The position numbers were made by a program, and so were the translations under genes. A DNA stretch of 37,541 nt from IMG/VR virus record IMGVR_UViG_3300032770_000059, positions 1-37,541 of that record. One strand, given 5' to 3'. The notes below the pieces were generated by a model, which worked only from the letters and a program-made list of their open reading frames with translations, was not told the origin of the DNA and ran no database searches. This DNA comes from a virus. How positions within the stretch are numbered: position 1 is the stretch's first letter; each line of letters starts with the position of its first letter. Positions 1 to 35,973 of the stretch are shown piece by piece.

Positions 1-875
1 TGGGCTGAGCCCGTGAACGTCTCGGCCGGGACGGTCCCGCTCGATCCGGTGAACGTCTGCGCCGACGTCGTCGCGCTCGTCCCGCTGAAGGTCGGCACGC
101 CCGCGGGCCACGCGATCGTGCCGGCCGCGTTGATCGTCGGTGTGAAGCTGTTGATGGTCGTCCCGCTGTGCGTCGGGACGCTCGCCGGCCACGCGATCGT
201 GCCCTGGCTGTTGATCGTCGGGGTGAACGACGACCCCGGCGCCGCGCCGCCGATGGCACTGAACCCTCCGCTCGATGTCCCTTTGAAGCTGCCGCTCGTC
301 GTCGTCACCGCGTTGATCGTCGTGCCGGAATGCGTCGGCACCGCCACCGGCCACGCGATCGTGCCCTGGCTGTTGATCGTCGGACTGACACTGTTGATCG
401 TCGTGCCGCTAATCGTCGGCACGCCGGCCGGCCACGCGATCGTGCCTGTCGCCGTCACCGTGCCGGTGCCGTTCGTGCCCGCCGGCGTGAAGCTGACCGT
501 CCCGTTGGTCCCCGCCGGCGTGTAGCTGTCCATCGTGACGGTCGGCTGCGACACCGTGCCCGCCGGCGTGCCGGCGCTCACCGCCGAGGACGTCACGGCG
601 TTCCCCGTGAACGTCGGCTGCGAGACAGTGCCCGTGGCCGTCAGCGTCGCCGACCCGCCGGTTGACCCGACGTTGCTGTGCGCCGCGATCGTCGATCGCA
701 GGTAGTACCCGTCGTACGAGGTTTCCTGAACCCAGCCAGCGGGGCACGTCCCATCGGCCAGGAACAGGAAGTGCGTCGCCGTGAACGGGTCCGGCGCCCG
801 ACCGCCAAACGCGTACCCGACCCCGAGGCTGACGATGACCGACACCAGGACCGTCTGGAACAGGTGACTTCTCAT
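1..875 (-). CDS. Exported collar-like tail protein with tandem repeats (3' part outside window)
   Basis: The frame stays open from ATG at 875 to the left edge, so at least 291 residues are present and the C-terminus is missing. It starts inside the stop of the preceding gene (ATGA overlap). Residues 1-24 are a signal-peptide-like stretch: a short basic end, then a hydrophobic run (VLVSVIVSLGVGYAFG). Residues 38-80 (core ADGTCPAGW, then YYLR and a Gly/Ser-rich GSTGGSAT) resemble the phage tail-collar pattern found near receptor-binding tips. The rest is Thr/Ser/Gly/Ala-rich with a repeating GTIAWPA-VPT-SGTTIN unit of about 27 residues. Position at the end of the tail genes fits a fibre or collar. 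A secretion signal on such a protein is odd. The collar match is by motif only; the fibre role is inferred. Confidence 0.7.
   Translation of the reverse strand, partial: MRSHLFQTVLVSVIVSLGVGYAFGGRAPDPFTATHFLFLADGTCPAGWVQETSYDGYYLRSTIAAHSNVGSTGGSATLTATGTVSQPTFTGNAVTSSAVSAGTPAGTVSQPTVTMDSYTPAGTNGTVSFTPAGTNGTGTVTATGTIAWPAGVPTISGTTINSVSPTINSQGTIAWPVAVPTHSGTTINAVTTTSGSFKGTSSGGFSAIGGAAPGSSFTPTINSQGTIAWPASVPTHSGTTINSFTPTINAAGTIAWPAGVPTFSGTSATTSAQTFTGSSGTVPAETFTGSA
106..446 (-). repeat. 81-bp tandem repeats inside the collar-like gene
   Basis: The 17-bp core ggccacgcgatcgtgcc occurs at 106-122, 187-203, 349-365 and 430-446. The offsets are 81, 162 and 81 bp, so the period is 81 bp (27 codons) with one degenerate unit near 268. 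The units at 185-221 and 347-383 are identical over 37 bp. The repeats keep reading frame and encode the GTIAWPA units of the overlapping minus-strand gene, so this is a protein repeat under recent duplication or homogenisation rather than a DNA array. Confidence 0.85.
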
Positions 876-6436: not shown

Positions 6437-7750
6437 TCAGCTCGCCACGTCCTGAAGCCTCGGCTGCGTGGCCGCATCGCGGTCGGCCGACGTTTCGAGC
6501 ATGTCGCGGTTCGGCTCCGATGCCCGCTTGCGCGAGAGGGTCACGCCACAGAAGTTCATGAACCCGTCCAACAGGGGCGACGTCGCCGCGAACTCCGCCC
6601 CGCCCAGCTTGAGCATGCCGACGTGCTGCGCGTAGCCGAGAATCGCGTCGAGCGCCTCCGGTGCGACCTGTACCGGATCCTGGTTCACCGGCGCGTTCTG
6701 CAACACGTCGAACGTCAGTCCGTACGGTCCCGCGTCGGCCATCGGCGCGAGCGCGAAGATGTTCCGGCCGCCCACGAGGATCTGGCCCGGCACCCCTGGC
6801 ACGTTCAGCCAGCCGACCGAGTAGCGGTCGGCGTCCTGCACGGACATGATCGGCAGCTCCTGCCCGTTGATCGTACCAGCGAGTAGGAGGCTCGTCGACG
6901 CCTTTGCCAGCGCGATGCCATCCGTCCACCGCTGCTGACAGTACGTCGCGCGCGCAGGGTCCGCCGCGATGCCGTCCTCCGCGAACAGGTCGGCCAGGGC
7001 ACCGAACTTCACGACCCAGGCCCAATCGTCAGGGACGCCCAAGAGGACGCCGGCGACAGGGTTCAGCGTGGCGCCGTTCTCCACCGTCAACAGACGCAGT
7101 CGCCCGGTGTTGAGGGGGGCGGGGGCCACCTGCACCATCAACGGCGGGACGACGCTCACGCTGAACGCTTGCGGGGGCTGTTCGGCTTGATTCGCCCACC
7201 GGGACTTGAAGAGCGCGAAGGCCCACTCGTCTTCGCGCATCAGAATGTTTTCCGTGCCGTCGCCGTTCAACCACGCCACCCGGCGCAGGTCGATCACCGT
7301 GCCCGGGAGGACCGTCCGCGTCGCTGGCGGCAGCACCGCGTCGACGACGCGCGACGTCACCACCATGCCCGTTTCGACCAGGAACTGATTCCGGCGCCGC
7401 TCGATCGCTGCCGTCAGGTCCGCCAGGGTGAACTGCTCCGACCCCGTCCACGCCGTCGGCGTCGCCGGCTCCTGAAGCGCGTCCTCGATATCGACGATCA
7501 CGTCGCGATCGAGAACGTGGTACCCGCAAGCGTCGGGTGCCTCCGTTGCTAGATCGTAGAAGGGCGTCGACGCTGCCGACGCGAACGCCACGCGCTCCCG
7601 CCAGAACCCCGTACACGCCTGATACGTGCGCAGCCCGTCCGTGATCAGCCGGCCCAGCTCCGCGCTCGTCCAGAACGCCATCGTCGGGTCGTTCAGCCGG
7701 CCCGCCAGCGCGGTCTTCGCCGCCGCCAACGAGACCGCGGTGTAGCCCAT
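6437..7750 (-). CDS. Adaptor-like structural protein (437 aa)
   Basis: The start at 7750 overlaps the stop of the spike gene by one base (TGATG). The N-terminus (AKTALAGRLNDPTMAFW, ELGRLITDGLR, TGFWRE) carries the helical pattern seen in phage head-tail adaptor or tail-connector proteins, where a short helical module binds the portal or nozzle ring. The remaining 350 residues are mixed, with a WLNGDG turn and a long hydrophobic middle (DDWAWVVKFGALADLF). It lies between the spike and the giant hub protein, an arrangement that suggests it forms a ring at the tail base. I do not recognise a named family, and the adaptor idea rests on the N-terminal pattern and context. Confidence 0.65.
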   Translation of the reverse strand: MGYTAVSLAAAKTALAGRLNDPTMAFWTSAELGRLITDGLRTYQACTGFWRERVAFASAASTPFYDLATEAPDACGYHVLDRDVIVDIEDALQEPATPTAWTGSEQFTLADLTAAIERRRNQFLVETGMVVTSRVVDAVLPPATRTVLPGTVIDLRRVAWLNGDGTENILMREDEWAFALFKSRWANQAEQPPQAFSVSVVPPLMVQVAPAPLNTGRLRLLTVENGATLNPVAGVLLGVPDDWAWVVKFGALADLFAEDGIAADPARATYCQQRWTDGIALAKASTSLLLAGTINGQELPIMSVQDADRYSVGWLNVPGVPGQILVGGRNIFALAPMADAGPYGLTFDVLQNAPVNQDPVQVAPEALDAILGYAQHVGMLKLGGAEFAATSPLLDGFMNFCGVTLSRKRASEPNRDMLETSADRDAATQPRLQDVAS

Positions 7751-10700
7751 CAGCGCACCACAAGGACCCGGCAGGTCGCCGTCGATTGCGTGTTCGAGGA
7801 CTGGATCGTCAGCCCGGCCGTCGTCGGCGTCGCCGCCGAGAAGGTCTCAACCGCCGTGCAGGTCAGGCCGGTCGGCAACCAGTTGGCGTCGGGCTCATTG
7901 AGGCCCACCGTCGCCGTCGGCGTCGTCGTCCCATCCGGGAAGCTGGGCGTCCCAGGAGACGCGAAGACCGTAATGTGCGTCCCATCGACGATCGAGCTGA
8001 TTGTGCCCCAGAAGTCGCTCGCGGCCCCATCTCCGCAGCAGGTTGCGACGTGCAGCACCTTCCCCACGTCGTCGGCCGTGAAGTGTCCGCTCGTGACCGC
8101 GACCGTCCAGGTGTAGGTCGTGCTGTTGAAGTTGTCAGGACCGACGACCGTCAGGCCCTCGGATCGCTGGAACGGGCAGGTCAGCACCGCCGTCGTCGGC
8201 GCCGACGTCCCAAGGCTCCCGTCGGCCGTGTTGTCGGTGTAGCTCGTCGTGACGTTGTCGCTGATCGTCGTCAGGAGCTTCGCGTTCGCGAGGCCGCTCG
8301 TCCCGGCGCTCGTGCGCCAGACCTTGCGCGCGGTCGTGCCGGTCGGCCCGGTCGCGATCGACGTGACGCTGACCTTGCCGTCCGACGTGTGATCGGCCAC
8401 GTTGACCGATCCGGCGGACGAGATGTCGATCGCCGCCGGCCCGACGAACGTGACGTAGTACTCGTGCGTGCCGTTGTTGACGTTGCCGGACCCCGATCCG
8501 GCGAGCGCGGCCGACGGGGTCCCGGGCACCGGCCCGAAGCTGCATGCCTGCCGGAGATTCTGCCCGTTCGCGTAGACCCCTTCGCCGAAGGTCTTCACGC
8601 GCGCCAACTGCTGCACGGTGCCCACGGGCGCCGACGGCTTCTGGAGGATGAACGGATTCAGCGGCGACCCGAAGTTCTGAATCCCGGACTGGACCAGGGA
8701 CGTCACGTCGCTCAGGAAGTTCGGCACGCTGAAGCTGCCGTCGGGCAGCGTCCACTCGTCGTTCGCGTCCCCGTAGATCGACCCTGTGTTGCCGACGCTC
8801 GTCACGGTGACGAGGCCGCTCGCCCCGGCAATCACGCCGGTCTGGAGCGTCCACGGGAACGCCAACCCCGACGAGATCGCCGACGTGGGCGTCGGGAGCG
8901 CCGCGAGGATGTCGTCTTCGTTCATTTGCGGCGTGACCCCGAGTTCCCACCGCGGCCCGTTCGGGATCATCGTCACCGGGTTCGGCCCGAGCGCGAGCAC
9001 CTTGTTCTGGACCAGCGTGTAGTGGCCGTGCCCCATGTCGCTATTGACGATGCGGCCGGTCGAGAACAGGTTCGCCGTGTACGTCGCCCCGTAGCCGCCC
9101 CCGTACGCGGCGGTGTTCACGAAGACGACCGGGTTCGTCGTCGTCCCGGTGATGACCGGCCCCTGGCCTTGATTGCCAAGGAACCACCCGCACTGCCCGG
9201 CCGTGCTGGACGAGACGCTCGTCACGAGGCACCGCACGCCGGACCCATTGCCCGCCACCGTCGCGTTCGGGAGCTGCACGCTGGCCCCGACGTCGAACGC
9301 GGTGATCGCGTTGGCCGGGAAGGTCAGGTCCGCGAGCGCGTTGTCGTAGATCCTGCCCGTCACCGTTCCGCTCGTCGCGACGCAGTTGGTCACGCCGAGA
9401 CAATAGACCGTCCCCGTCGTCGAAGACAGCAGCGACCAGAACTCCGTGACCGCGGGGTTGCCGCCGATCCCCAGGCCCGGCAGAAGCAGCACCTTGCGCT
9501 CGTCCGCTCCCGTGAAGGTGTCAGCCGGGAAACTGACGGGGAAGAACGATCCCGTCGGCGAACCCGTGGAGACGTTCGAGACGACCAGACTCGCCAGATC
9601 GCGCGTGCTGTTGGGCGCCGCCGCCACGTCCCCCGTGATCGCTCGCGTGGCCGCCGGCTCCGCGATGTTCATTTGATCGAACTTCGACGACGGCTCCTGC
9701 CCGACGATCGGAATCCCTACGCCCTCGCTGCGGTAGTCGCTCACCGCGAACGGCCCGAAGCCGCCCTGCATGAAGTCGATATCGTCGAAGCTCGCACTGC
9801 CCTTGCGGATGAACACGTTGCCGGCAAAGTTCGTGTCCACCCCGACCTTGTTGAACCCCATGCTCAGGTCGTTGAACAGGATGTCGAGCGTGTTCGCCCC
9901 GTTGATGACTGTGCCGAAGCCGCCGTTGTTCAGCGTGAGCTGGTTGTAGGTCGCGTCCGACGCTTCGCCCCCGACGAAGTCGCCGATCTTCACATCGACG
10001 CCAAAGCCGGCCACGCCCACGCGGTTGATCGTGTACTCCAGACACTCCGTCCCACCACTCGGCAGCCCGCCGAAGTAAATCCCCCACTGCGTCGCGTCGT
10101 CGGTGTCCGACCCGCTCGCGTTGTTCACCGAGAAATCTTCCAGCGAGAAGTACTTGTTGCGCGACAGAATGAGCGCCGCGCACGCGTTCACCCACTGCCC
10201 CGTGTCCGGGCACCCGAGGAAGTTGAGCACTGACGACGCCTCACTCGCCCCCGCGATCGAGATGTACCGCTGCGCGGTGTCCACTGGCGACTGGTACGCC
10301 AGGAAGGTGAAGCCCCCGCTGGAGGCTTGCAGGTAGTCGGTCGTCGCCGTGAAGTCCACGAAGTGATCGAAGTGCGGGTTGCGAGCGATGAGCCCGCCGT
10401 CGGCGTCGTTGACCGCCCACTCGTTGACCGAGTACGCCCCGTCCCCTCGACTCGTCGCCGGGAAGTTGTACAGCGCGTTCGACCCACCCGAGAGCGTCGA
10501 TGCCAGGGTGAACGTGATGTGCTTGCCGTCGCCGATGTCCGTCACGACCCCGGTGAAGTACCTCAGCTTGACGTTCCCGCCGTTGAAACACTGCCAGTCG
10601 TCGGTCGGCGAGCCACCTACGCATGGGCTGGGCGTGTTGTACGGTTCGAGCGCATCGTGCGGGCCGGGCCGATTCGTGCAGGGGAGCGTCAGGCAGTCGA

Positions 10701-11622
10701 GCGGCGCCCGGAGCGTCGCCACGGCAAACGTCACCGACTTGTTCAGATTGTCGCTCGTCAGGCTGTTCGAGTCCGTGATCGTCAGGTGGTGATCGTCGGT
10801 GATGAAGACCGACTGACTGCCCGTGGTCGTCGTGTTCGGCACGACCCCGTCGTTGATGGCGTAGGTCGTCGGCACGCAGGTCGCCGACGTCGACGAGAGC
10901 AGCGCCGTGATCGTGCAGCCGTAGGTGGGCTGGAGCACGAGGTTCTCGCCCACCGCCTGATAGGCCGTGTCGTACGGCCCGTAGAAGACGAAGTTGCCGA
11001 CGTCGGCGGAGGTGATCGTCGACCCGGTCCAGGTGATCGTCGTCGAACTCGCCGTAAAGCTGACCGTCGCCGAGCGCGGTGCGTTGAGCGTCGCCGTCAC
11101 GTTCGGGAGCCACCCCGCGCCGGTCGGACTCTGCTGCCAGGGATTCGTGATGGGTCCGACGACCAGCGGCGCGCTGTACTGACACGATCCCGGCGGCAGG
11201 ACGACCTTCCCCGACTTCCCCCACACGTAGGCCGCATCGACGGCGCCCTGGAGGGCTACCGTGTCATCGGTCGACCCGTCGCACTTGGCCCCGAACGTCG
11301 ACGCGTTCGCGTAGAACTCGTTGCCGAGCTGCGTGCTGCTCGCCACCTGCACCCAGGTTCCGCTGGCCTGACAAAACCAGCCTGGACCGTTCACCGTGGC
11401 GGCTGCGGACTGCAAGTACAGGCTCCCGGGCGCGCACGAACCGGACGGCGCCGACGAACCCCACCGGATCTGTGGGTTGAACGTGACGCTCGTGCCCCCG
11501 AGGTAGATCCGGCTGAAGATGCCGATCACGGGCTGCTGGGCGACGAGCAGGCCGCTGACCGCCAGCACGGCCAGCACCGCGCCCGCTGAGGCGAATCCCA
11601 GTCGGCGAATCAGACGGTGCAT
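7750..11622 (-). CDS. Pectate-lyase-like tail spike with signal peptide (1290 aa)
   Basis: The ATG at 11622 is preceded by CCAGGAG with ideal spacing. An ATG 13 codons upstream lacks this. Residues 1-28 form a clear secretion signal (RLIRR, then ASAGAVLAVLAVSGLLVA, cleavage after A28 before QQ). Residues about 55-95 form a Cys-paired module (SGSCAPGSLYLQ, GWFCQASGTW). Residues about 105-145 (FGAKCDGSTDDTVALQ, GKVVLPPGSCQYS) match the entry of Pectate_lyase_3-type beta-helices, the usual fold of depolymerase spikes. A long beta-rich body follows. Residues about 1050-1145 (GTHEYYVTFVGPAA, GTTARKVWRT, YTDNTADGSLG) form an Ig/Fn3-like phage carbohydrate-binding-type module. It is expected to bind or cleave a host surface polysaccharide. 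The signal peptide is unusual for a spike. Confidence 0.8.
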   Translation of the reverse strand: MHRLIRRLGFASAGAVLAVLAVSGLLVAQQPVIGIFSRIYLGGTSVTFNPQIRWGSSAPSGSCAPGSLYLQSAAATVNGPGWFCQASGTWVQVASSTQLGNEFYANASTFGAKCDGSTDDTVALQGAVDAAYVWGKSGKVVLPPGSCQYSAPLVVGPITNPWQQSPTGAGWLPNVTATLNAPRSATVSFTASSTTITWTGSTITSADVGNFVFYGPYDTAYQAVGENLVLQPTYGCTITALLSSTSATCVPTTYAINDGVVPNTTTTGSQSVFITDDHHLTITDSNSLTSDNLNKSVTFAVATLRAPLDCLTLPCTNRPGPHDALEPYNTPSPCVGGSPTDDWQCFNGGNVKLRYFTGVVTDIGDGKHITFTLASTLSGGSNALYNFPATSRGDGAYSVNEWAVNDADGGLIARNPHFDHFVDFTATTDYLQASSGGFTFLAYQSPVDTAQRYISIAGASEASSVLNFLGCPDTGQWVNACAALILSRNKYFSLEDFSVNNASGSDTDDATQWGIYFGGLPSGGTECLEYTINRVGVAGFGVDVKIGDFVGGEASDATYNQLTLNNGGFGTVINGANTLDILFNDLSMGFNKVGVDTNFAGNVFIRKGSASFDDIDFMQGGFGPFAVSDYRSEGVGIPIVGQEPSSKFDQMNIAEPAATRAITGDVAAAPNSTRDLASLVVSNVSTGSPTGSFFPVSFPADTFTGADERKVLLLPGLGIGGNPAVTEFWSLLSSTTGTVYCLGVTNCVATSGTVTGRIYDNALADLTFPANAITAFDVGASVQLPNATVAGNGSGVRCLVTSVSSSTAGQCGWFLGNQGQGPVITGTTTNPVVFVNTAAYGGGYGATYTANLFSTGRIVNSDMGHGHYTLVQNKVLALGPNPVTMIPNGPRWELGVTPQMNEDDILAALPTPTSAISSGLAFPWTLQTGVIAGASGLVTVTSVGNTGSIYGDANDEWTLPDGSFSVPNFLSDVTSLVQSGIQNFGSPLNPFILQKPSAPVGTVQQLARVKTFGEGVYANGQNLRQACSFGPVPGTPSAALAGSGSGNVNNGTHEYYVTFVGPAAIDISSAGSVNVADHTSDGKVSVTSIATGPTGTTARKVWRTSAGTSGLANAKLLTTISDNVTTSYTDNTADGSLGTSAPTTAVLTCPFQRSEGLTVVGPDNFNSTTYTWTVAVTSGHFTADDVGKVLHVATCCGDGAASDFWGTISSIVDGTHITVFASPGTPSFPDGTTTPTATVGLNEPDANWLPTGLTCTAVETFSAATPTTAGLTIQSSNTQSTATCRVLVVR

Positions 11623-11665
11623 GAGAAGACTCCTGGACGAGACGCGCCGCCCCCACGGCACCGCG

Positions 11666-12340
11666 TCAGAGGCTGTAGATGATCCGACCGAAGAAGAACC
11701 CCGGGTTCGTCATGCCTCCGATGACCGTCGCCCGCAAGCGCAGGTTCTGAAGCGCCAGCGGATCCGGCGCCGGCAACTGCACGACGTGCGTCACGAACTG
11801 GGTCGAGTCCGTGAGCGGCACCGGGTCCTGAAGCACGACCCCCGCCGACACGAGGTCGTAGAGTTCGAGCTGGAGACTCCCGCCGAGCGGTGCCTGCCCG
11901 ATGAACGACACGTTCGCCAGGAGCCCGCCCGGCGCTTCCGGCCAGTTCAGCGTGACATCCAGGAAGCCGACCGCCGCCACGACGGTCGCGTCGTCCGAAT
12001 CCACCGCCGGCGCGGCCGACTGCGACCCACCGAGTTCAGCCTGCGAGACCGCGATCGGATTGCCGCCGACGTCGGCCAGGACGATGTCCGCCCAGGTGTA
12101 CGGCGTCACGATGCCCGTGCCGCTGAAGACGTTGTCGTACCGGCCATTCACGGCGTACCAATCGAAGAACCCACTGGCCGCGTCCGCGGTGAACGGGTTC
12201 GCCTTCGGCGTCACGCCGTCGGCGTCCTCGAAGATCGACGCGAGCGTGACGGGGTCGCCCGCCGGATGCACGGTGATCGTGCAGCCCGGCGCCGGCGCCC
12301 CCGTCGCGAGGATCCGCGAGTACCCGAAGAACCGCTGCAT
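11666..12340 (-). CDS. Head- or tail-fibre-like protein (224 aa)
   Basis: The N-terminal 60 residues (GAPAPGCTITVHPAG, LASIFEDADGVTPKANPF, GFFDWYAVNGRYDN) match a recurring phage fibre N-terminal module in which a value, a location and a fill-in segment alternate, ending in a Tyr-Asp turn. The remaining part is beta-rich and lacks catalytic motifs. It follows the small 75-residue gene with a 3-bp gap and precedes the spike, so it may anchor or cap that protein. No strong ribosome-binding site is visible and translation may be coupled to the gene upstream. Naming as fibre-like is by motif memory only. Confidence 0.65.
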   Translation of the reverse strand: MQRFFGYSRILATGAPAPGCTITVHPAGDPVTLASIFEDADGVTPKANPFTADAASGFFDWYAVNGRYDNVFSGTGIVTPYTWADIVLADVGGNPIAVSQAELGGSQSAAPAVDSDDATVVAAVGFLDVTLNWPEAPGGLLANVSFIGQAPLGGSLQLELYDLVSAGVVLQDPVPLTDSTQFVTHVVQLPAPDPLALQNLRLRATVIGGMTNPGFFFGRIIYSL

Positions 12341-12343
12341 CGC

Positions 12344-12571
12344 TTACCGCGCGCGCTTGAGGTTGACCGGACTGTCGATCTTGCCGGGCGTCGACGCGAG
12401 CCCCGTTTCCATGATCTTCTCGGGCGCCACGCCCGGGCTCATGTCCCGCGGCTTCGTGAACGGCGGGCACGGATAGCTCGTGCCGGCATTCGCCGTCGGC
12501 TGCATCGAGACACTCGCCATCGGAGTAATCGGCGAGTGCAGCGCCCCCTGACCCTTGTTCGTCTTCTTCAT
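12344..12571 (-). CDS. Small hypothetical protein, 75 aa
   Basis: A short gene starting MKKTNKGQG behind a clear AAGGAG, fitting exactly between the LAGLIDADG gene and the fibre-like gene (3-bp gap). It is basic at both ends (final residues NLKRAR), Pro/Thr/Ser-rich and probably largely disordered. I do not recognise it. The good ribosome-binding site and tight fit argue that it is real; it may be a minor virion or assembly peptide. Confidence 0.6.
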   Translation of the reverse strand: MKKTNKGQGALHSPITPMASVSMQPTANAGTSYPCPPFTKPRDMSPGVAPEKIMETGLASTPGKIDSPVNLKRAR

Positions 12572-12584
12572 GACTGCGCTCCTT

Positions 12585-13034
12585 CTATGCCGTCTTTTGA
12601 CCAGAACGGCGTCCGTACCAGCCGGTGCGCTTCCGTTCAGCGTTGAGACTCCTGAAGTAGAAGCCGTTCGCTGGTGGGTTGAGAATCCAGAAGCGATAGG
12701 TGTCTTCGACGATCTGCTTCTTCACGATGACGTACGGCCTGATGGCCGGCAGCAACTTCAGCAGGTTCTTGCGTCCCACGACGCGAAGGTACCAGAGCGC
12801 CTGCCGAGTCATGATCGGCCCGTCGCTCGCCTTCCGGTCGGACAGGTACGACGGAATCCCGTGCTCTCCGAGAAACGCCTTGATCGCCACCAGCACCTCG
12901 CGGCCTCGCTCTCCCGACTGACACAGCGTCAGCGTTGAGTTCCCGCCAGCCCGTGAGTTGTTGTTGTACGTGCCGAGCGAACCTTCGCCGTCGAAGAAGC
13001 CAGCCAGATAGGGCCACGTGATCATGGGCTTCAT
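12585..13034 (-). CDS. LAGLIDADG homing endonuclease, free-standing
   Basis: The protein opens with YLAGFFDGEGS (residues 9-19), a single LAGLIDADG motif in which D15 and E17 occupy the metal-binding positions. The rest shows the usual layout: a Gly/Asn-rich strand (TYNNNSRAGGNSTLTL), a helix, and LWYLRVVGRKNLLKLL, PYVIVKKQ typical of this family. With one motif and 149 residues it would act as a homodimer. The start at 13034 avoids overlap with the adaptor gene that stops at 13036; an in-frame start at 13061 is possible. It stands alone between two structural genes with no intron sign, so it is a selfish gene inserted in the operon. Such enzymes usually cut near their own insertion site in phages lacking the insert. 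Confidence 0.9.
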   Translation of the reverse strand: MKPMITWPYLAGFFDGEGSLGTYNNNSRAGGNSTLTLCQSGERGREVLVAIKAFLGEHGIPSYLSDRKASDGPIMTRQALWYLRVVGRKNLLKLLPAIRPYVIVKKQIVEDTYRFWILNPPANGFYFRSLNAERKRTGWYGRRSGQKTA

Positions 13035-13035
13035 T

Positions 13036-14004
13036 TTACAGCCCAAAGATGTTCGGATCATGCACCTGGAGCCACGACGCGTCTATAGGGAAGCCCACGC
13101 GCGACGTCTCGCGCGCGATCCGCCGCTTCAACATCCGGCCGTCGTCAAGCTTCTTCGTGTTCTGAAGGTCGATCACGTAGTTCTCGCGCGCGTCCTTCAA
13201 GAGTAGCGTGAAGTTCGCGCCCTTCAGGGCCGGGAACCGCATCGCGTTCGCCACCGCCCACGGAATCGCGTACCGGGCCAGCGCCCGATTCACCACGAGG
13301 CTCTCTGGCACGATGTCCGGCAGCGTCGCGGTGAGCCCCACCAGCGGCCAGTCGACGAGCTGGACCGTACACTCGAAGGTCTGGGGCACGATCGGGCTGG
13401 GCCACAGCTCGTAGCGCGTCGTGCCGTCCGTCGTCGTGTCGTGCTCCACGAGGTAGAACGGCATCCCCTGCGCGGACCGCGTCGGATCGCGACGGTCCAG
13501 GGTGGCCGCCGACACATGCAGCCTGCGGAACGCGTACCCGTTGTTGGGGTCCACGATCGATAGGAACCGCTGCGTGCCGGGCACCGGCGACGTGCAGTAC
13601 GCCTGCCAGACCAGATACGGCGCCGCCGCGTTCGTCGGCCCCTGAAAGGGCTGATCGAGCGTCAGCGTCCTCGTCCCGTGAGCGTAGGCCGTGATCGTGT
13701 AGAACGGCCCGGCGTTTGCCACGCGGAACTGCCGGCCGACGAGCGGCGGCACGCCGTTCACCACCGCGTTGAGCGCCGCATCGGCCGTCGCGTCCGCTAC
13801 GGCCGACCGCGAGAACTGCGTCACCGCCACCGAGCCGGCCGTGATGCCGGTCGGCACGGTGAACGGGGCGTCAGCTTGCAGGAAACTCCACTCGCGCTGC
13901 CGGACGATGTCCTGCCACGCCCGGCGCACGTAGGTCTGCGCCAGGAACACCGACAGATTGGAGATCGTGCCGACGATCTCCAGGTACATGTCCGCAAAGG
14001 CCAT
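13036..14004 (-). CDS. Head-tail adaptor/connector-like protein (322 aa)
   Basis: The N-terminus (VFLAQTYVRRAWQDIVRQREWSFLQADAPFTVP) carries the helix-then-WSFL pattern of phage adaptor proteins that sit beneath the portal ring. A beta-rich segment follows, with GRQFRVANAGPFYTITAY and LTLDQPFQGPTN. The C-terminal third is helical (VVNRALARYAIPWAVANA, LLLKDARENYVIDLQN). The length and order after the capsid genes fit an upper head-tail connector. A GAGG precedes the start and the gap to the upstream gene is 27 bp. The family match is by pattern only, but the position supports it. Confidence 0.65.
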   Translation of the reverse strand: MAFADMYLEIVGTISNLSVFLAQTYVRRAWQDIVRQREWSFLQADAPFTVPTGITAGSVAVTQFSRSAVADATADAALNAVVNGVPPLVGRQFRVANAGPFYTITAYAHGTRTLTLDQPFQGPTNAAAPYLVWQAYCTSPVPGTQRFLSIVDPNNGYAFRRLHVSAATLDRRDPTRSAQGMPFYLVEHDTTTDGTTRYELWPSPIVPQTFECTVQLVDWPLVGLTATLPDIVPESLVVNRALARYAIPWAVANAMRFPALKGANFTLLLKDARENYVIDLQNTKKLDDGRMLKRRIARETSRVGFPIDASWLQVHDPNIFGL

Positions 14005-14031
14005 GCGCGCGCCTCATGGCGGTCTCGTCGC

Positions 14032-14385
14032 CTACAGTCCGATCGCCGTCAGCCGCGCGATGCTCGCCGACAGGTCGACGTCGGCCGCGACCTCGTCGCC
14101 CGTCGCGACGACAATCCACATGAGCAGCACCGTCGCCTGTCCGCCGTTCGCCGGCGTGCCGGCCGTGTTCGTGAACACCGGAATGACGTCGTAGGTCCCG
14201 TCCTGTGTGCGCACGCGATCGAGGCTGTCGATCCGCCGCATCCCGCACGACTGCGCCGCCAGCGCGTCGCCGGCGCCCGTCGTGAGATCGATCTGAACGT
14301 ACGACGCTGGGCCGGCGTGCTGCACGACGGCCAGACGCTGCGAGCCGACGACGGTCGGGTAGCCCGAAAGAGGCACGGTAGGCAT
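14032..14385 (-). CDS. Hypothetical small virion protein, 117 aa
   Basis: The start at 14385 (MPTVPLSGYPTVVG) lies behind AAGGAG; the longer frame is an artefact overlapping the upstream gene. The protein is beta-rich with a Gly/Asp central part (DLTTGAGDALAAQSCGMRR) and a strand-like LLMWIVVATGDEVAAD. Neighbours are a signal-bearing 331-residue protein 11 bp upstream and the adaptor downstream. It may be a head decoration, tail completion or stopper protein. I do not recognise a family. Confidence 0.7.
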   Translation of the reverse strand: MPTVPLSGYPTVVGSQRLAVVQHAGPASYVQIDLTTGAGDALAAQSCGMRRIDSLDRVRTQDGTYDVIPVFTNTAGTPANGGQATVLLMWIVVATGDEVAADVDLSASIARLTAIGL

Positions 14386-14396
14386 CAGACCACTCC

Positions 14397-15392
14397 TTAG
14401 TACGCCGCCGACTTGTAGTACACCGCGAACGGAGCCATCGCGATCAGCGTCTTGGTCGAGCCGCCGCCGTTCGTGACGAACGCGATCTTCACGCACAGAA
14501 ATACGTTCGGCGAGTTCATCGCGAGCGCCGTGCCGGCCGTGATGTTGCCGCGGTACAGCACGCCTTCCGTGACCGCCGTCTTCTGCCAGTTCGTGCTCGT
14601 CGGCGTCAGGACGATCGTCCCGAGGGGCGTGGTCGAGACGGTGCCGGCCGCGGTGCCACCCGCGGTTGTCGGCCCCGTCACGGAGTAGACCACTGGATCC
14701 GTCACGGACGACAGCGTCGTCGTCGTCACGCCGTAGTTGATGTCCAACCCGGTGACGGTGATGCCGGCCCCTGACGTGGTCAGACTCGCCGGGATCAACA
14801 CCTGACAGGTGAGCGTCACCGTGCCGGAGGTCGTATTGGTCTGGAACTCACGGAGCGATTCCCCAGTCGCCGCAGTCGCCCACTTCGGGTAGCCGGTATC
14901 GGCCGCCGTCGTGGTGTACACGTCCGAGCAACTCTCCGGAGAAGCCAGGAAGAAGCGATCGGTCCGTGACGCCGAGGGCGTCGCGATATTGCGCGAGGCC
15001 GGCGTCACCGCCAGAATGTCGCCGCCCGTCGTCGTCACGAACGCCACGACCACGTTGCCCGGGGCGAACGCCGTCGCAAGCGTCGTCGTCGTCGACAGCG
15101 ACGTCCCGCTGTGCCAGTAGATGAAGTTGCACGACGCGTACGCCGGCGCCGTGCAGTCCGTCTCGGCATCCGTCGTCAGCAATCCGGTCGAATCGCCGGT
15201 GATCGCCTGACTCGCGCCGCCGTAGGTGATCGTGCCGGACGTGTAGATGGCCCGCAGCGACGTGCCGGAATGCGCGCTCACGATCGGCGGCGCTCCGCTG
15301 TAGCCCTGTGCCACGAGACGCGGCGCCATCGGCACCGCGGTCAGCATCGCCAGCATTGCCAGCATCAGAAGGCCGAAGGATCGTCGACTCAT
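14397..15392 (-). CDS. Exported Thr/Ser-rich structural protein with signal peptide (331 aa)
   Basis: Starts at 15392 behind GGAGAG. Residues 1-28 are a signal peptide: MSRRSF, a Leu/Met/Ala core (GLLMLAMLAMLTAVPMA), then RLVA cleaved before QGYSG. The end is the same V-A-Q at the same residue number (28) as in the tail spike. The mature part is Ser/Thr/Gly-rich and beta-predicted, with several Cys (TDCTAPAYASC, ESCSDVY, TLTCQV, FLCVKI), which would fit disulphides made outside the cytoplasm. It lies between the capsid-decoration-like gene and the adaptor region, where head or tail-completion proteins are expected. It could be a virion surface protein, or a secreted phage product rather than a virion part. 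I do not recognise a family. Confidence 0.7.
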   Translation of the reverse strand: MSRRSFGLLMLAMLAMLTAVPMAPRLVAQGYSGAPPIVSAHSGTSLRAIYTSGTITYGGASQAITGDSTGLLTTDAETDCTAPAYASCNFIYWHSGTSLSTTTTLATAFAPGNVVVAFVTTTGGDILAVTPASRNIATPSASRTDRFFLASPESCSDVYTTTAADTGYPKWATAATGESLREFQTNTTSGTVTLTCQVLIPASLTTSGAGITVTGLDINYGVTTTTLSSVTDPVVYSVTGPTTAGGTAAGTVSTTPLGTIVLTPTSTNWQKTAVTEGVLYRGNITAGTALAMNSPNVFLCVKIAFVTNGGGSTKTLIAMAPFAVYYKSAAY

Positions 15393-16183: not shown

Positions 16184-16828
16184 CTACGACGCGCCGACCG
16201 CGCCGATGACCTCTGCCGGTCGCGGCGAGACCCGCGCCGAAACGGCCGCCTCGATCAAGTCCCACCGACCTTCACACTCCCGCACCTGCGCCGAGATCGT
16301 GAGCTTAGGCGTGACGTGCTCCCCATGCAGCCGACGGTGAATTGTCACGCCGGCCACGCCGAACTGATTGGCGAGCGCGCGCTGTGACATGCCCTCGTCG
16401 TTGAGGCGCGTCAGCTCGTCTGCGTCCAGCGCCTTGTGCCACACGTCCGGCCCGACGACCACGAGCTGCCGTCCATCGACCCGTTCTGATGGCACCACCC
16501 AGAATCGATTCTGATCGATGCCCCACAGCACCACGAAGTCTGACCGCTCGCTGAAGATCCTGGGCCGGCTCTGCCACGTCTTCGACTTCGCCCGCTTCAT
16601 CGACTTCGCCAGCTTGAACCAATACGCGCCCTGGTCTTTGTACATCCCGCTTCGAACAACCAGACGCGCCGTCTTCACCTGAATGCGAACGCCGCCATCG
16701 ATGACGAGGTCGTACCCGTAATCCACCAACGGAAAATGCACGTTGAACCCACGCAGCGCCAACTGCGACGCGACCTGTAGCTCGCCGGCCTTGCCGGTGA
16801 GTAGCGACTGCGGTGCCTTCCCGTCCAT
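16184..16828 (-). CDS. PD-(D/E)XK endonuclease with C-terminal helix-turn-helix
   Basis: The start at 16828 lies behind AAAGGAG. Residues 12-55 hold the PD-(D/E)XK core of the PDDEXK_5-type group: GKAGELQVASQLALRGF (E16), then YGYDLVID (D40) and IQVKT (Q50, K52) replacing the usual D/E-X-K with Q-X-K. The middle has basic and aromatic residues, and VVLWGIDQNRFWVVP is typical. Residues 138-168 form a helix-turn-helix (LTRLNDEGMSQRALANQFGV, then TIHRRL) that could bind the target site. Such proteins act as homing or very-short-patch-like nucleases. It follows the major capsid gene by 33 bp and stands alone in the operon, which suggests a selfish insertion. The nuclease fold is well supported; homing activity is inferred. 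Confidence 0.8.
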   Translation of the reverse strand: MDGKAPQSLLTGKAGELQVASQLALRGFNVHFPLVDYGYDLVIDGGVRIQVKTARLVVRSGMYKDQGAYWFKLAKSMKRAKSKTWQSRPRIFSERSDFVVLWGIDQNRFWVVPSERVDGRQLVVVGPDVWHKALDADELTRLNDEGMSQRALANQFGVAGVTIHRRLHGEHVTPKLTISAQVRECEGRWDLIEAAVSARVSPRPAEVIGAVGAS

Positions 16829-16861: not shown

Positions 16862-17974
16862 TCACACTCCCAAACCGTATGCCTGCAACATGTACCGCGG
16901 CCCGAGGTACTGGTAGTTCTGCGCGGCCTTGATGTACCCGACGATCTTCGAGTTGTCGTTGTTGGGCAGGAAGCCGCTGAAGCCGTACCCGTACTCGGCG
17001 TCGTCGGTCAGCCGGAACAGGATCTGCTTCGTGTTGAACCAGCAGAAGACCTCGCCGACCGTGACCGTCACGCCCTCCGCCGGCAGGTTCGACGTCGGAT
17101 CCACGCCCGCGGGAACCGCGAACGAGCCCGTCAGGTAGTTCCCCAGGTCCGGGTCGTTCTTCCCGTAGCGCAGCGACGGGAAGTAGTCGTCCTTGAGGAT
17201 GATCGCGTTGTTGAACCGCAGCCCGGTCGCGCCCCAGAGCGGATCGCGCTCCTGCGCGAACCGCTGCTGGACCTGCATCCGTTCCTTGAACAGCGCGTAC
17301 GCCAGCTTGTTGCAGACGCCCAGATCCGGCTCGATGTTGCCGATCGAGCAGGTCTGGTAGGACTCTTCCATCTGGGCGTAGTTCGCCGGCCCCACCGACC
17401 CGTCCGGATTGCCCATCCAGAGGGGCACCGAGTTCAGCGCCGACCCGATCACGCCATTGCGGACCTGCGTGCCGTACTCGGTGTAGATGTTGCCGTCCCA
17501 GCTCGGCGTGATGCCGTCGTTGAGCGCCTCGGGCCACCCGTTCATGTTCAGCGGCCGCGTCTGCCCGTTGAGCGCCGCGTCGACCGCCGAGATGGCCGAC
17601 AGCGTGTTCATCGCGTTCGCCAGATCCGTCTGGAGCAGCGACAGCAGCGCGAGCGGCCCCTTGTTCAGCACCTGGAGGATTTCCTTGTACTCGGGGACCG
17701 CGACCTCGTAGTACTTCGGATCGAAGAGCGTCGCCGTCAGCGTCTCGCGCTTCGTCGTGTTCCAGGTCTGCCCAATCGCGTACGCGCCGCCGATCATCGG
17801 CGCGAACAGGTGCGTGTTCTGCATGAAGGCCCCGCCGCCGAACGGCACCATGCAGTGGTCCTTCACGTACGCCTGCAACGGCGTCCCCTTGAAGAACTGG
17901 TCGTTGATCACGACTGGATAGACCTCTTTCAAAGTCGTGATATTGAGTGCGTCGAGTACGGGATCGGTCGCCAT
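16862..17974 (-). CDS. Major capsid protein (HK97-fold-like)
   Basis: 370 residues from ATG at 17974, with AGGAG just upstream. It comes after a scaffold-like gene and before decoration and adaptor genes, the canonical place for the major capsid protein. Features in line with HK97-fold capsids of podoviruses: a helical start (LDALNITTLKEVYPVVINDQ), a long charged extended region, GNIYTEYGTQVRNGVIG, an A-domain-like central part, and a C-terminal strand set (VTVTVGEVFCWFN, QILFRLTDDAEYGYGF, YQYLGPRYMLQAYG). No protease motif is seen. It is flanked on both sides by endonuclease genes, at 10 and 33 bp. Identity is strong from context and size; the exact family was not checked. Confidence 0.85.
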   Translation of the reverse strand: MATDPVLDALNITTLKEVYPVVINDQFFKGTPLQAYVKDHCMVPFGGGAFMQNTHLFAPMIGGAYAIGQTWNTTKRETLTATLFDPKYYEVAVPEYKEILQVLNKGPLALLSLLQTDLANAMNTLSAISAVDAALNGQTRPLNMNGWPEALNDGITPSWDGNIYTEYGTQVRNGVIGSALNSVPLWMGNPDGSVGPANYAQMEESYQTCSIGNIEPDLGVCNKLAYALFKERMQVQQRFAQERDPLWGATGLRFNNAIILKDDYFPSLRYGKNDPDLGNYLTGSFAVPAGVDPTSNLPAEGVTVTVGEVFCWFNTKQILFRLTDDAEYGYGFSGFLPNNDNSKIVGYIKAAQNYQYLGPRYMLQAYGLGV

Positions 17975-17983
17975 TGCAGTCTC

Positions 17984-18481
17984 CTACTCAGAAGCCGCGG
18001 TGTCCGCGGTCCCCTTGCGATTGAGCACTCGGATCTTCCGGATGAACTCGGTGCGCCGATCGATCACCGACTGCGGCGTGCCGTAGAACCCAGACTTTTT
18101 CATCGTGGTCTGAAACGCGAGGCACACGTCGGCTTGCTCGCCTTTGAGCACGAAGTACGGGCGACAGAAGGCGAGGATCTGCGAGGCGCGCGCCGATGCG
18201 ACGTGCCACTGGAACGAGGACTTCCACTCCGGATGCGCACGATGCGCAGCACTGGTCACTCGCACGACGTGACCACCAAAGGTGGACTGAAGCCACATCA
18301 TCAACCGCGGATCGGTGTTCGAGATGTGAATCTGGACGTACTCGTGGTACCTCAGCGCCTTCGAGTTCTTCCGCGTCCGACGATGGATCCGAACGCAGCC
18401 CTCGCCATCGATGAACGCGGCGAGCCGCGCCCAATCGATTGCGCTGACCGTGTTGAGTTCGACCGTCTCGTGTGATCGCAT
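17984..18481 (-). CDS. LAGLIDADG homing endonuclease, free-standing
   Basis: Residues 20-28 (LAAFIDGEG, D25 and E27) form a single LAGLIDADG motif, followed by CVRIHRRTRKNSKAL and YVQIHISNTDPRLMMWLQ, the strand-helix layout of this family. The C-terminal half (WHVASARASQILAFCRPYF, KGEQADVCLAFQ) matches the lower part of such enzymes. The start at 18481 is 8 bp from the scaffold stop at 18489; a longer open frame upstream overlaps the scaffold gene and is not used. With one motif and 165 residues it would be a homodimer. It is inserted exactly between scaffold and major capsid gene, a hallmark of mobile selfish genes. Weak similarity in layout to the other LAGLIDADG protein, but not a close copy. 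Confidence 0.9.
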   Translation of the reverse strand: MRSHETVELNTVSAIDWARLAAFIDGEGCVRIHRRTRKNSKALRYHEYVQIHISNTDPRLMMWLQSTFGGHVVRVTSAAHRAHPEWKSSFQWHVASARASQILAFCRPYFVLKGEQADVCLAFQTTMKKSGFYGTPQSVIDRRTEFIRKIRVLNRKGTADTAASE

Positions 18482-33530: not shown

Positions 33531-33700
33531 TCCTCGCCTTGCTGATCGTCGCCGCCGTCGTCTGGGCTCCGATCTGGAGCCTGCTGTTACAGGTCTGGTA
33601 CAGCATCGAACCGGGCCGGCCGCCGTGCCCGCACTGCCACCAGACCCCGGCGCCCGTCTGGCGTGCGCGCCGGTGTCCGCACTGCGGGGGGAGCCTGTGA
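33524..33700 (+). CDS. Membrane-anchored zinc ribbon, 58 aa
   Basis: Another frame below common length cut-offs. ATG at 33524 overlaps the stop of the previous gene, and its own TGA overlaps the GTG of the next (GTGA). The first 24 residues are one hydrophobic segment (VVLALLIVAAVVWAPIWSLL). After a short linker come two Cys pairs, CPHC and CPHC (residues about 35-38 and 52-55), the mark of a zinc ribbon in the cytoplasm or periplasm. It may tether a partner to the membrane or alter host membrane machinery. Family unknown. Confidence 0.65.
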   Translation: MVVLALLIVAAVVWAPIWSLLLQVWYSIEPGRPPCPHCHQTPAPVWRARRCPHCGGSL

Positions 33701-34293
33701 CCAGCCCCGACCCGTACCCCGGTCCTGTCCGCTGCGCATGGTGCCACGTCATCATCCGACCGGCGCAACCGGGGCACGAGTCCGACCAGACCTCACACGG
33801 AATCTGCGATCCGCCGTGCGCCCCGGCGATCGCGGCCGGCTGGGGAGCGTATCTGTCCGCCCCCGCCGCGCGCCGGCTCTGCGCGTGTGGCTGCGGACAA
33901 CCGACGCCACCAGCGAAGCAGACCAGCCAACGCTATGGATCCGTACGCGGCGAACCCCTCCGCTTCATCCCAGGCCACCAACGCCGCAGACACGGCCACG
34001 CGATAAAGATTCACCGGAGCCCGACCTACAACTCCTGGCGCTCAATGATCGAACGCTGCCGGTACCCGCAGCACCCGAAATACCGTCTCTACGGCGGACG
34101 CGGTATCGACGTCTGCGAGCGATGGGCCACCTTCGATCCGTTCCTCGCTGATATGGGCGTTCGACCCGCCGGCCGTTCGCTGGACCGCATCGATCCGGAC
34201 GGTCCGTACGAACCGGGCAACTGCCGATGGGCCACACCGCTTGAGCAACGACACAACCGACGACAACCACCGAAGGAGAAAACACAACCATGA
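33697..34293 (+). CDS. HNH homing-type endonuclease with Cys-rich N-terminus
   Basis: 198 residues from GTG at 33697 (GTGA overlap). Residues 13-41 hold CAWC and CDPPC pairs; residues 62-66 CACGCG followed by RGEPLRFIPGH (85-94), a pattern common before phage HNH domains. The nuclease part spans about 110-190, with SWRSMIERC, YGGRGIDVC, RPAGRSLDRIDPDG and YEPGNCRWAT (171-180). These are phage-type free-standing homing endonucleases. The last half is nearly the same as in the HNH protein at 35419-35973. It is inserted in the plus operon, coupled on both sides by 4-bp overlaps, with no intron sign. Confidence 0.85.
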   Translation: MTSPDPYPGPVRCAWCHVIIRPAQPGHESDQTSHGICDPPCAPAIAAGWGAYLSAPAARRLCACGCGQPTPPAKQTSQRYGSVRGEPLRFIPGHQRRRHGHAIKIHRSPTYNSWRSMIERCRYPQHPKYRLYGGRGIDVCERWATFDPFLADMGVRPAGRSLDRIDPDGPYEPGNCRWATPLEQRHNRRQPPKEKTQP

Positions 34294-35418: not shown

Positions 35419-35973
35419 TTACCTCGCGTTGCTCCGACGACGCTCGTGCGCCGCCTGAATCCGTTTGGCGTTCGCGGCGGACAACTGCGCTTGCCTTGCC
35501 GGGGTGAATCGGCTGTTTTTCGCCTGCTCTTGCCGCGTCGCCCATCGGCAATTGCCCGGCTCGTAGTGCCCGTCGTTGTCAATTCGATCCAACGACCGCC
35601 CCGCCGGCCTCGGCCCCATGTCCCTCAGAAAGTCTCTCACATCGTCCCATTGACTGGAGAATCGAATACCCCGGCCGCCGTAGTCGCGCCACTGGGGATG
35701 ACTCGGATTGCGACATCGGTCCCGAGCCGACCACCACGCGTAGTACTCTGGCCGGTCAGCCAGTCCGTGCTTCATCACCCTCTCGCGCCTCCAACACCCG
35801 CAACTGACGATCAGGCCGGCGCGGAGATCGGAACCAGTGACAATCGACTTCCCTCCGCAGTCGCATTGACAAACCCACCGGGTGTTTCGACGCACGCCGA
35901 CCGCATCCGCTCGCCGCACCACACGCAAGCGGCCGAACCGTTGCCCGGTTTCGTCAATGCAAACTCTCGGCAC
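35419..35973 (-). CDS. HNH homing-type endonuclease with zinc-finger-like N-terminus
   Basis: 184 residues from a GTG at 35973, 15 bp beyond the dnaB stop; GGGAG lies a little far upstream. Residues 10-20 (GQRFGRLRVVR) and Cys pairs C35/C37/C39 and C58/C60 form the small N-terminal zinc-ribbon seen in phage HNH proteins. The nuclease part is at about 78-150: WWSARDRC, YGGRGIRF, PRPAGRSLDRIDNDG, YEPGNCRWATRQEQ. It is nearly the same in this half as the HNH protein at 33697-34293 on the other strand. It sits between dnaB and the lysis gene as a free-standing selfish gene. Confidence 0.85.
   Translation of the reverse strand: MPRVCIDETGQRFGRLRVVRRADAVGVRRNTRWVCQCDCGGKSIVTGSDLRAGLIVSCGCWRRERVMKHGLADRPEYYAWWSARDRCRNPSHPQWRDYGGRGIRFSSQWDDVRDFLRDMGPRPAGRSLDRIDNDGHYEPGNCRWATRQEQAKNSRFTPARQAQLSAANAKRIQAAHERRRSNAR

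Follow-up and report, generated by a model that had tools for sequence, protein, structure and literature searches.

Predicted signal peptides in the window

The window, meaning the whole stretch of DNA analysed in this work, is a 37,541-base IMG/VR virus record with its late genes on the minus strand. Those of its features which are referred to in the text are listed below with their coordinates, strand and evidence; a slash marks a predicted cleavage site.

3..875, minus strand: collar-like protein, truncated by the window end (homologue L039:13424-14521)
804..875, minus strand: residues 1-24 of the collar-like protein, predicted to be a signal peptide or anchor, with a weak site AFG/GR (N-terminus reading, caller)
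6437..7750, minus strand: conserved structural protein g437, downstream of the fibre slot, never with a signal (gene families of relatives)
7750..11622, minus strand: spike, 1290 aa, 23 Cys (PHROG tail-protein match and weak pectate-lyase-like match, PF12708)
11539..11622, minus strand: predicted spike signal peptide, residues 1-28, LVA/QQ (N-terminus reading, start site, caller)
11666..12340, minus strand: 224-aa protein with a signal-less head-binding-type domain, adjoining the spike (alignment; fold from the model of the L014 homologue)
13036..14004, minus strand: conserved tail protein g322, upstream of the fibre slot, never with a signal (gene families of relatives)
14397..15392, minus strand: 331-aa protein (homologous to L042:2990-3688, which occupies this gene slot)
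15309..15392, minus strand: residues 1-28 of the 331-aa protein, predicted to be a signal peptide, LVA/QG (N-terminus reading, start site, caller)
16862..17974, minus strand: major head protein, query for relatives (homology search)

As read from the sequence, the spike begins with MHRLIRRLGFASAGAVLAVLAVSGLLVA followed by QQ and the 331-aa protein with MSRRSFGLLMLAMLAMLTAVPMAPRLVA followed by QG, the segment L26-V27-A28/Q29 being common to both. The original prediction of a basic tip, a hydrophobic core and V-A/Q at residue 28 in these two proteins is thereby borne out, and both are positive in our signal caller. It had also proposed a third signal on the collar-like protein, which starts at 875 with MRSHLFQTVLVSVIVSLGVGYAFG followed by GR; here the basic tip, the hydrophobic core and a positive call were found as well, but the cleavage site is weaker. 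Cleavage after residue 28 in both the spike and the 331-aa protein is probably a coincidence; signal length varies among relatives.

The ATGs at 11622 (spike) and 15392 (331-aa protein) are plausible as true starts because Shine-Dalgarno-like sequences, AGGAG and GGAG, lie 7 and 8 nt upstream, respectively. A longer GTG start of the spike at 11661 has no such AGGAG/GGAG-type site upstream. In none of the three signal proteins is there a lipobox Cys at +1, the residue being Q, Q and G. The beginning of the 331-aa protein, MSRRSFGL(L), together with an Arg in the c-region, resembles a Tat signal (S-R-R-x-F-L-K); its L042 homologue does not, and the Tat models of NCBIfam gave no match to the 331-aa protein. 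Since neither Rfam matches nor tRNAs were found in the window, an intron-based origin of the N-termini is unsupported.

The match of the spike to PF12708 scored 25.3 bits, under the 27-bit cut-off. Just past its signal there is a cysteine module, SCAPGSLY...GWFCQASGTW; this cysteine-tryptophan module occurs in signal-bearing proteins only, but just three times. The predicted structure of the 331-aa protein, obtained from a two-sequence alignment, had a pLDDT of 37.5, too low to assign a fold.

Several free-standing homing-type nuclease ORFs lie among the window genes (12585-13061, 16184-16828, 17984-18406 and 35419-35973 on the minus strand, 33625-34293 on the plus strand). Sequence reading and weak PHROG matches place them as LAGLIDADG-like and HNH-like, with one PD-(D/E)XK/HTH-like. 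The segment 28500-30000, which separates the late genes on the minus strand from the genes on the plus strand, has about 75% GC and a strong GC skew, and no genes were assigned to it.

Signal calling and controls

Signals were called with a home-made, rule-based caller requiring a basic n-region, an uncharged 10-aa core with a mean Kyte-Doolittle value of at least 1.9, and agreement with the -3/-1 rule. In the window it was positive for 3 of 27 genes, exactly those flagged in the original prediction, and among the structural genes of T7, P22 and MyoSmar for none of 49. Random 44-mers taken from each protein's own body passed in 0.1-1.7% of cases and shuffled versions of the same N-termini in 4-31%; the latter are a poor control because the composition itself carries signal.

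Relatives of the window

Relatives were gathered via the head protein and g437. The former finds the Tunturiibacter phages Tunturi_1 and Tunturi_2 at 31% identity, both being podovirus-type isolates with 63-kb genomes which grow on Tunturiibacter (Acidobacteriota). Eleven IMG/VR loci were matched in the head-protein search and 34 in the g437 search. The window belongs to a family of podovirus-type soil phages that includes the Tunturiibacter isolates, and its own host is presumably also a member of Acidobacteriota. A head-protein relative was also present in one contig of a Bryobacterales MAG, the downstream part of which is too short for fibre genes to be read; the search of genome contigs with g437 gave no match. 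For the spike and the 331-aa protein, direct search of viral contigs yielded no relatives, and phage records contained none except for a 111-residue spike stretch in a Thermoanaerobacterium phage.

Distribution of signals among genes of the family

No signal-bearing protein was present among 213 unique members of ten other gene families in the relatives. Nine of these are late-gene families (terminase, portal, scaffold, head protein, g224b, g154, g322, g437 and g1404), and the tenth, g304, is a conserved family of the tail region. In the fibre family, in contrast, the caller was positive for 17 of 27 members from unique loci (Fisher p about 2e-19, uncorrected for kinship). With a looser signal test and a wider search, signals were present in 31 of 43 usable fibre-family members and absent in 12. 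In Tunturi_1 and Tunturi_2 they are found on gp12, gp13, gp14, gp16 and gp17 (predicted sites ASA/Q, GFA/Q, ATA/Y, ANA/Q and AGA/Q), all in one block whose proteins include some annotated as tail fibre, spike or virion structural protein. A small Tunturi_1 protein encoded outside the late block has a signal of the lipoprotein type, LSGCA (L013:39529-39912, minus strand).

Homologues of the window proteins keep their signals: L042:2990-3688, in the gene slot of the 331-aa protein, has the site ALA/Q and retains the Cys-pair motif C..P.YA.CNF.Y, and L039:13424-14521, related to the collar-like protein, has ALG/Q. Related phages differ in the form that they carry. In one (G003) four large late genes bear signals and the fibre family has no signal-less member, its relative G012 has signal-less fibres, and in L042 one member of each form stands in tandem. 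No signal was found on the structural genes read in Tunturi_3 and Tunturi_4, which are unrelated phages of the same host genus; therefore export is not required by the host, and it is the phage lineage that the signals characterise. The arrangement may not be confined to the Tunturi-type family, as a fragment of a different phage lacking recognisable core genes of the family (L097:3805-8299 and L098:2-4505) has three consecutive signal-bearing genes. In the first of these a head-binding-type domain follows the signal, with an original-looking Met directly after the cleavage site (TWA/MENYSQ).

The domain behind the signal

The domain directly behind the signals in the fibre family is predicted to be of the tailspike head-binding type, i.e. 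a virion-docking part. Its model for L014, built from an alignment without signals, had a pLDDT of 91 and resembled the solved head-binding domains of the tailspikes of Pan3 (Z 9.4), Pam1 (Z 8.8) and P22 (Z 7.8); Foldseek placed Pan3/Pam1 at ranks 1-3, with a weak E-value of 7e-3. The fold alone is no proof, because Cna-B/pilin-like folds gave Z values nearly as high, and weight is added by gene position and by sequence matches to tailspikes from several phages, among them those of Serratia and Escherichia. Four of these matching tailspikes were read and all start without a signal. The same domain is also present in signal-less form within the family. In the window the copy of it, placed by alignment only, is in the signal-less 224-aa protein; neither the spike nor the 331-aa protein matched the domain profile.

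A pair of cysteines in the fibre family of the relatives tracks the signal; in the numbering of the L014 domain, the predicted disulfide would link Cys9 and Cys34. Both are present in 25 of 31 signal-bearing members vs 1 of 12 signal-less ones (Fisher p 2e-5), the single exception being an unusually long ORF whose start is probably mis-called and lies later. Among the 31 signal-bearing members, 24 have an acceptable -3/-1 site at a distance of exactly 7 residues from the first Cys column, on its N-terminal side, and in most signal-less members Met1 stands at this same distance, so that cleavage would restore nearly the same N-terminus as that of the signal-less forms. On a poorly resolved tree about 8 changes are counted for the signal and about 7 for the Cys pair. 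Well-supported branches provide just two independent contrasts for a joint change of Cys pair and signal, which is too few for a kinship-corrected test.

Proposed assembly route and alternative explanations

Tailed phage particles are regarded as being completed in the cytoplasm before lysis. Sequence and model show that signals are present, that they are confined to appendage-type genes and where their sites fall, and also give the Cys pair and the predicted fold of the domain; from these we infer translocation, cleavage, disulfide formation and late docking of the spikes. It is fairly probable that many spikes and fibres of this phage family carry a cleavable Sec-type signal in their precursor form and are exported, cleaved, oxidised and docked late, the head, portal and tail-core proteins being cytoplasmic.

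According to this route, the latter proteins would be synthesised and assembled in the cytoplasm, while the Sec machinery of the host would move the spikes across the inner membrane, with Tat possibly serving the 331-aa protein. Signal peptidase I would cut directly ahead of the docking domain and periplasmic oxidation would form the disulfides. At lysis, the particles assembled in the cytoplasm would meet the periplasmic spikes, which would dock through the N-terminal head-binding-type domain. P22 tailspikes can be added in vitro to spike-less particles, which makes late docking plausible; how it would proceed against dilution after lysis is not explained by the proposed route. The window spike might dock via the signal-less 224-aa protein, or through another part of the spike.

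The wider picture is about evenly balanced in our judgement: assembly would take place in two compartments, with capsid and tail core made in the cytoplasm and disulfide-bonded receptor-binding spikes in the periplasm, joined around lysis, and relatives would switch between exported and cytoplasmic spikes by gain or loss of the signal and the Cys pair on the same docking domain.

The original prediction had assigned the signals to predicted virion proteins and offered three options for them. At the level of the lineage, the option with the best support is export followed by late joining, in view of the domain type, the site position and the Cys pair, and the signals of the relatives do precede a head-binding-type domain. 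For the window proteins themselves it stands less firmly: the spike and the 331-aa protein have no such domain, and their membership of the virion is less sure.

This is also where the main rival explanation takes its strength. The proteins might be exported but not belong to the virion, acting as phage-encoded secreted or surface proteins which share spike domains, either as depolymerases loosening the matrix at lysis or as receptor blockers. Signals without a head-binding-type domain on the two window proteins, the separate signal-less protein with that domain, and the weak match of the spike to a pectate-lyase-like family would all suit such a role. In the relatives, however, the signal directly precedes the head-binding-type domain, needless for a secreted enzyme, sister phages have signal-less versions in the same slot, and the fibre block of Tunturi_1 has no evident signal-less spike candidate. 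We regard this explanation as rather unlikely.

Much less probable is the second option of the original prediction, in which the hydrophobic N-termini would be uncleaved anchors tethering spikes to the host inner membrane or aiding contact between particle and membrane. The weak site of the collar-like protein would fit it, but in the fibre family acceptable peptidase sites recur at a fixed place, where signal-less homologues begin (24/31). The third option, N-termini acquired from host secreted proteins, is not supported as capture of a whole N-terminus, since the domain behind the signal is phage-type. That the signals are hitch-hiking sequence, captured with host secreted proteins and with no present function in phage growth, we likewise consider very improbable: their diversity and their repeated gain and loss on the tree would fit it, but the domain behind them is phage-type, the Cys pair follows them and they are kept in divergent homologues.

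Comparison with known systems

The fibre family is like the P22-like and the Pam1 and Pan3 cyanophage tailspikes in the fold predicted for its N-terminal domain (Z 7.8-9.4) and in the position of this domain ahead of diverse, often pectate-lyase-like distal parts. P22 gp9 and the other homologues read differ from it in that the domain lies at their very start, with no signal peptide ahead of it, whereas members of the fibre family have a Cys pair and a signal predicted to be cleavable.

Virion proteins pIII and pVIII of filamentous phages are made as signal-peptide precursors, and the proposed route shares with them the use of Sec-exported virion proteins. Filamentous phages, in contrast, assemble at the membrane and are extruded without lysis, and the phages described here are tailed, of podovirus type, with terminase, portal and head genes. 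Sec-type N-termini are also known from other exported phage proteins, namely endolysins (PMC8951688, PMC10820202) and Lom (PMC12309495). The Sec and SAR endolysins and Lom are, however, not appendages and have no head-binding-type domain.

Both parts, the head-binding-type domain and the signal peptide, are known. Of their combination in a tailed phage, with exported spikes, we found no description in the open-access PMC literature, and descriptions elsewhere are possible. In the main text of the Tunturi paper there is no mention of signal peptides and no result from virion proteomics, N-terminal sequencing or fractionation.

If export with late docking is true, receptor-binding parts mature elsewhere than the rest of the particle, acquire disulfides there and are attached late. 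This would bear on the annotation of such phages, on the expression of their depolymerases and on mixing of spikes between phages within one cell. This reading is directly testable because Tunturi_1 and Tunturi_2, which have this arrangement, and their host strain are already in culture.
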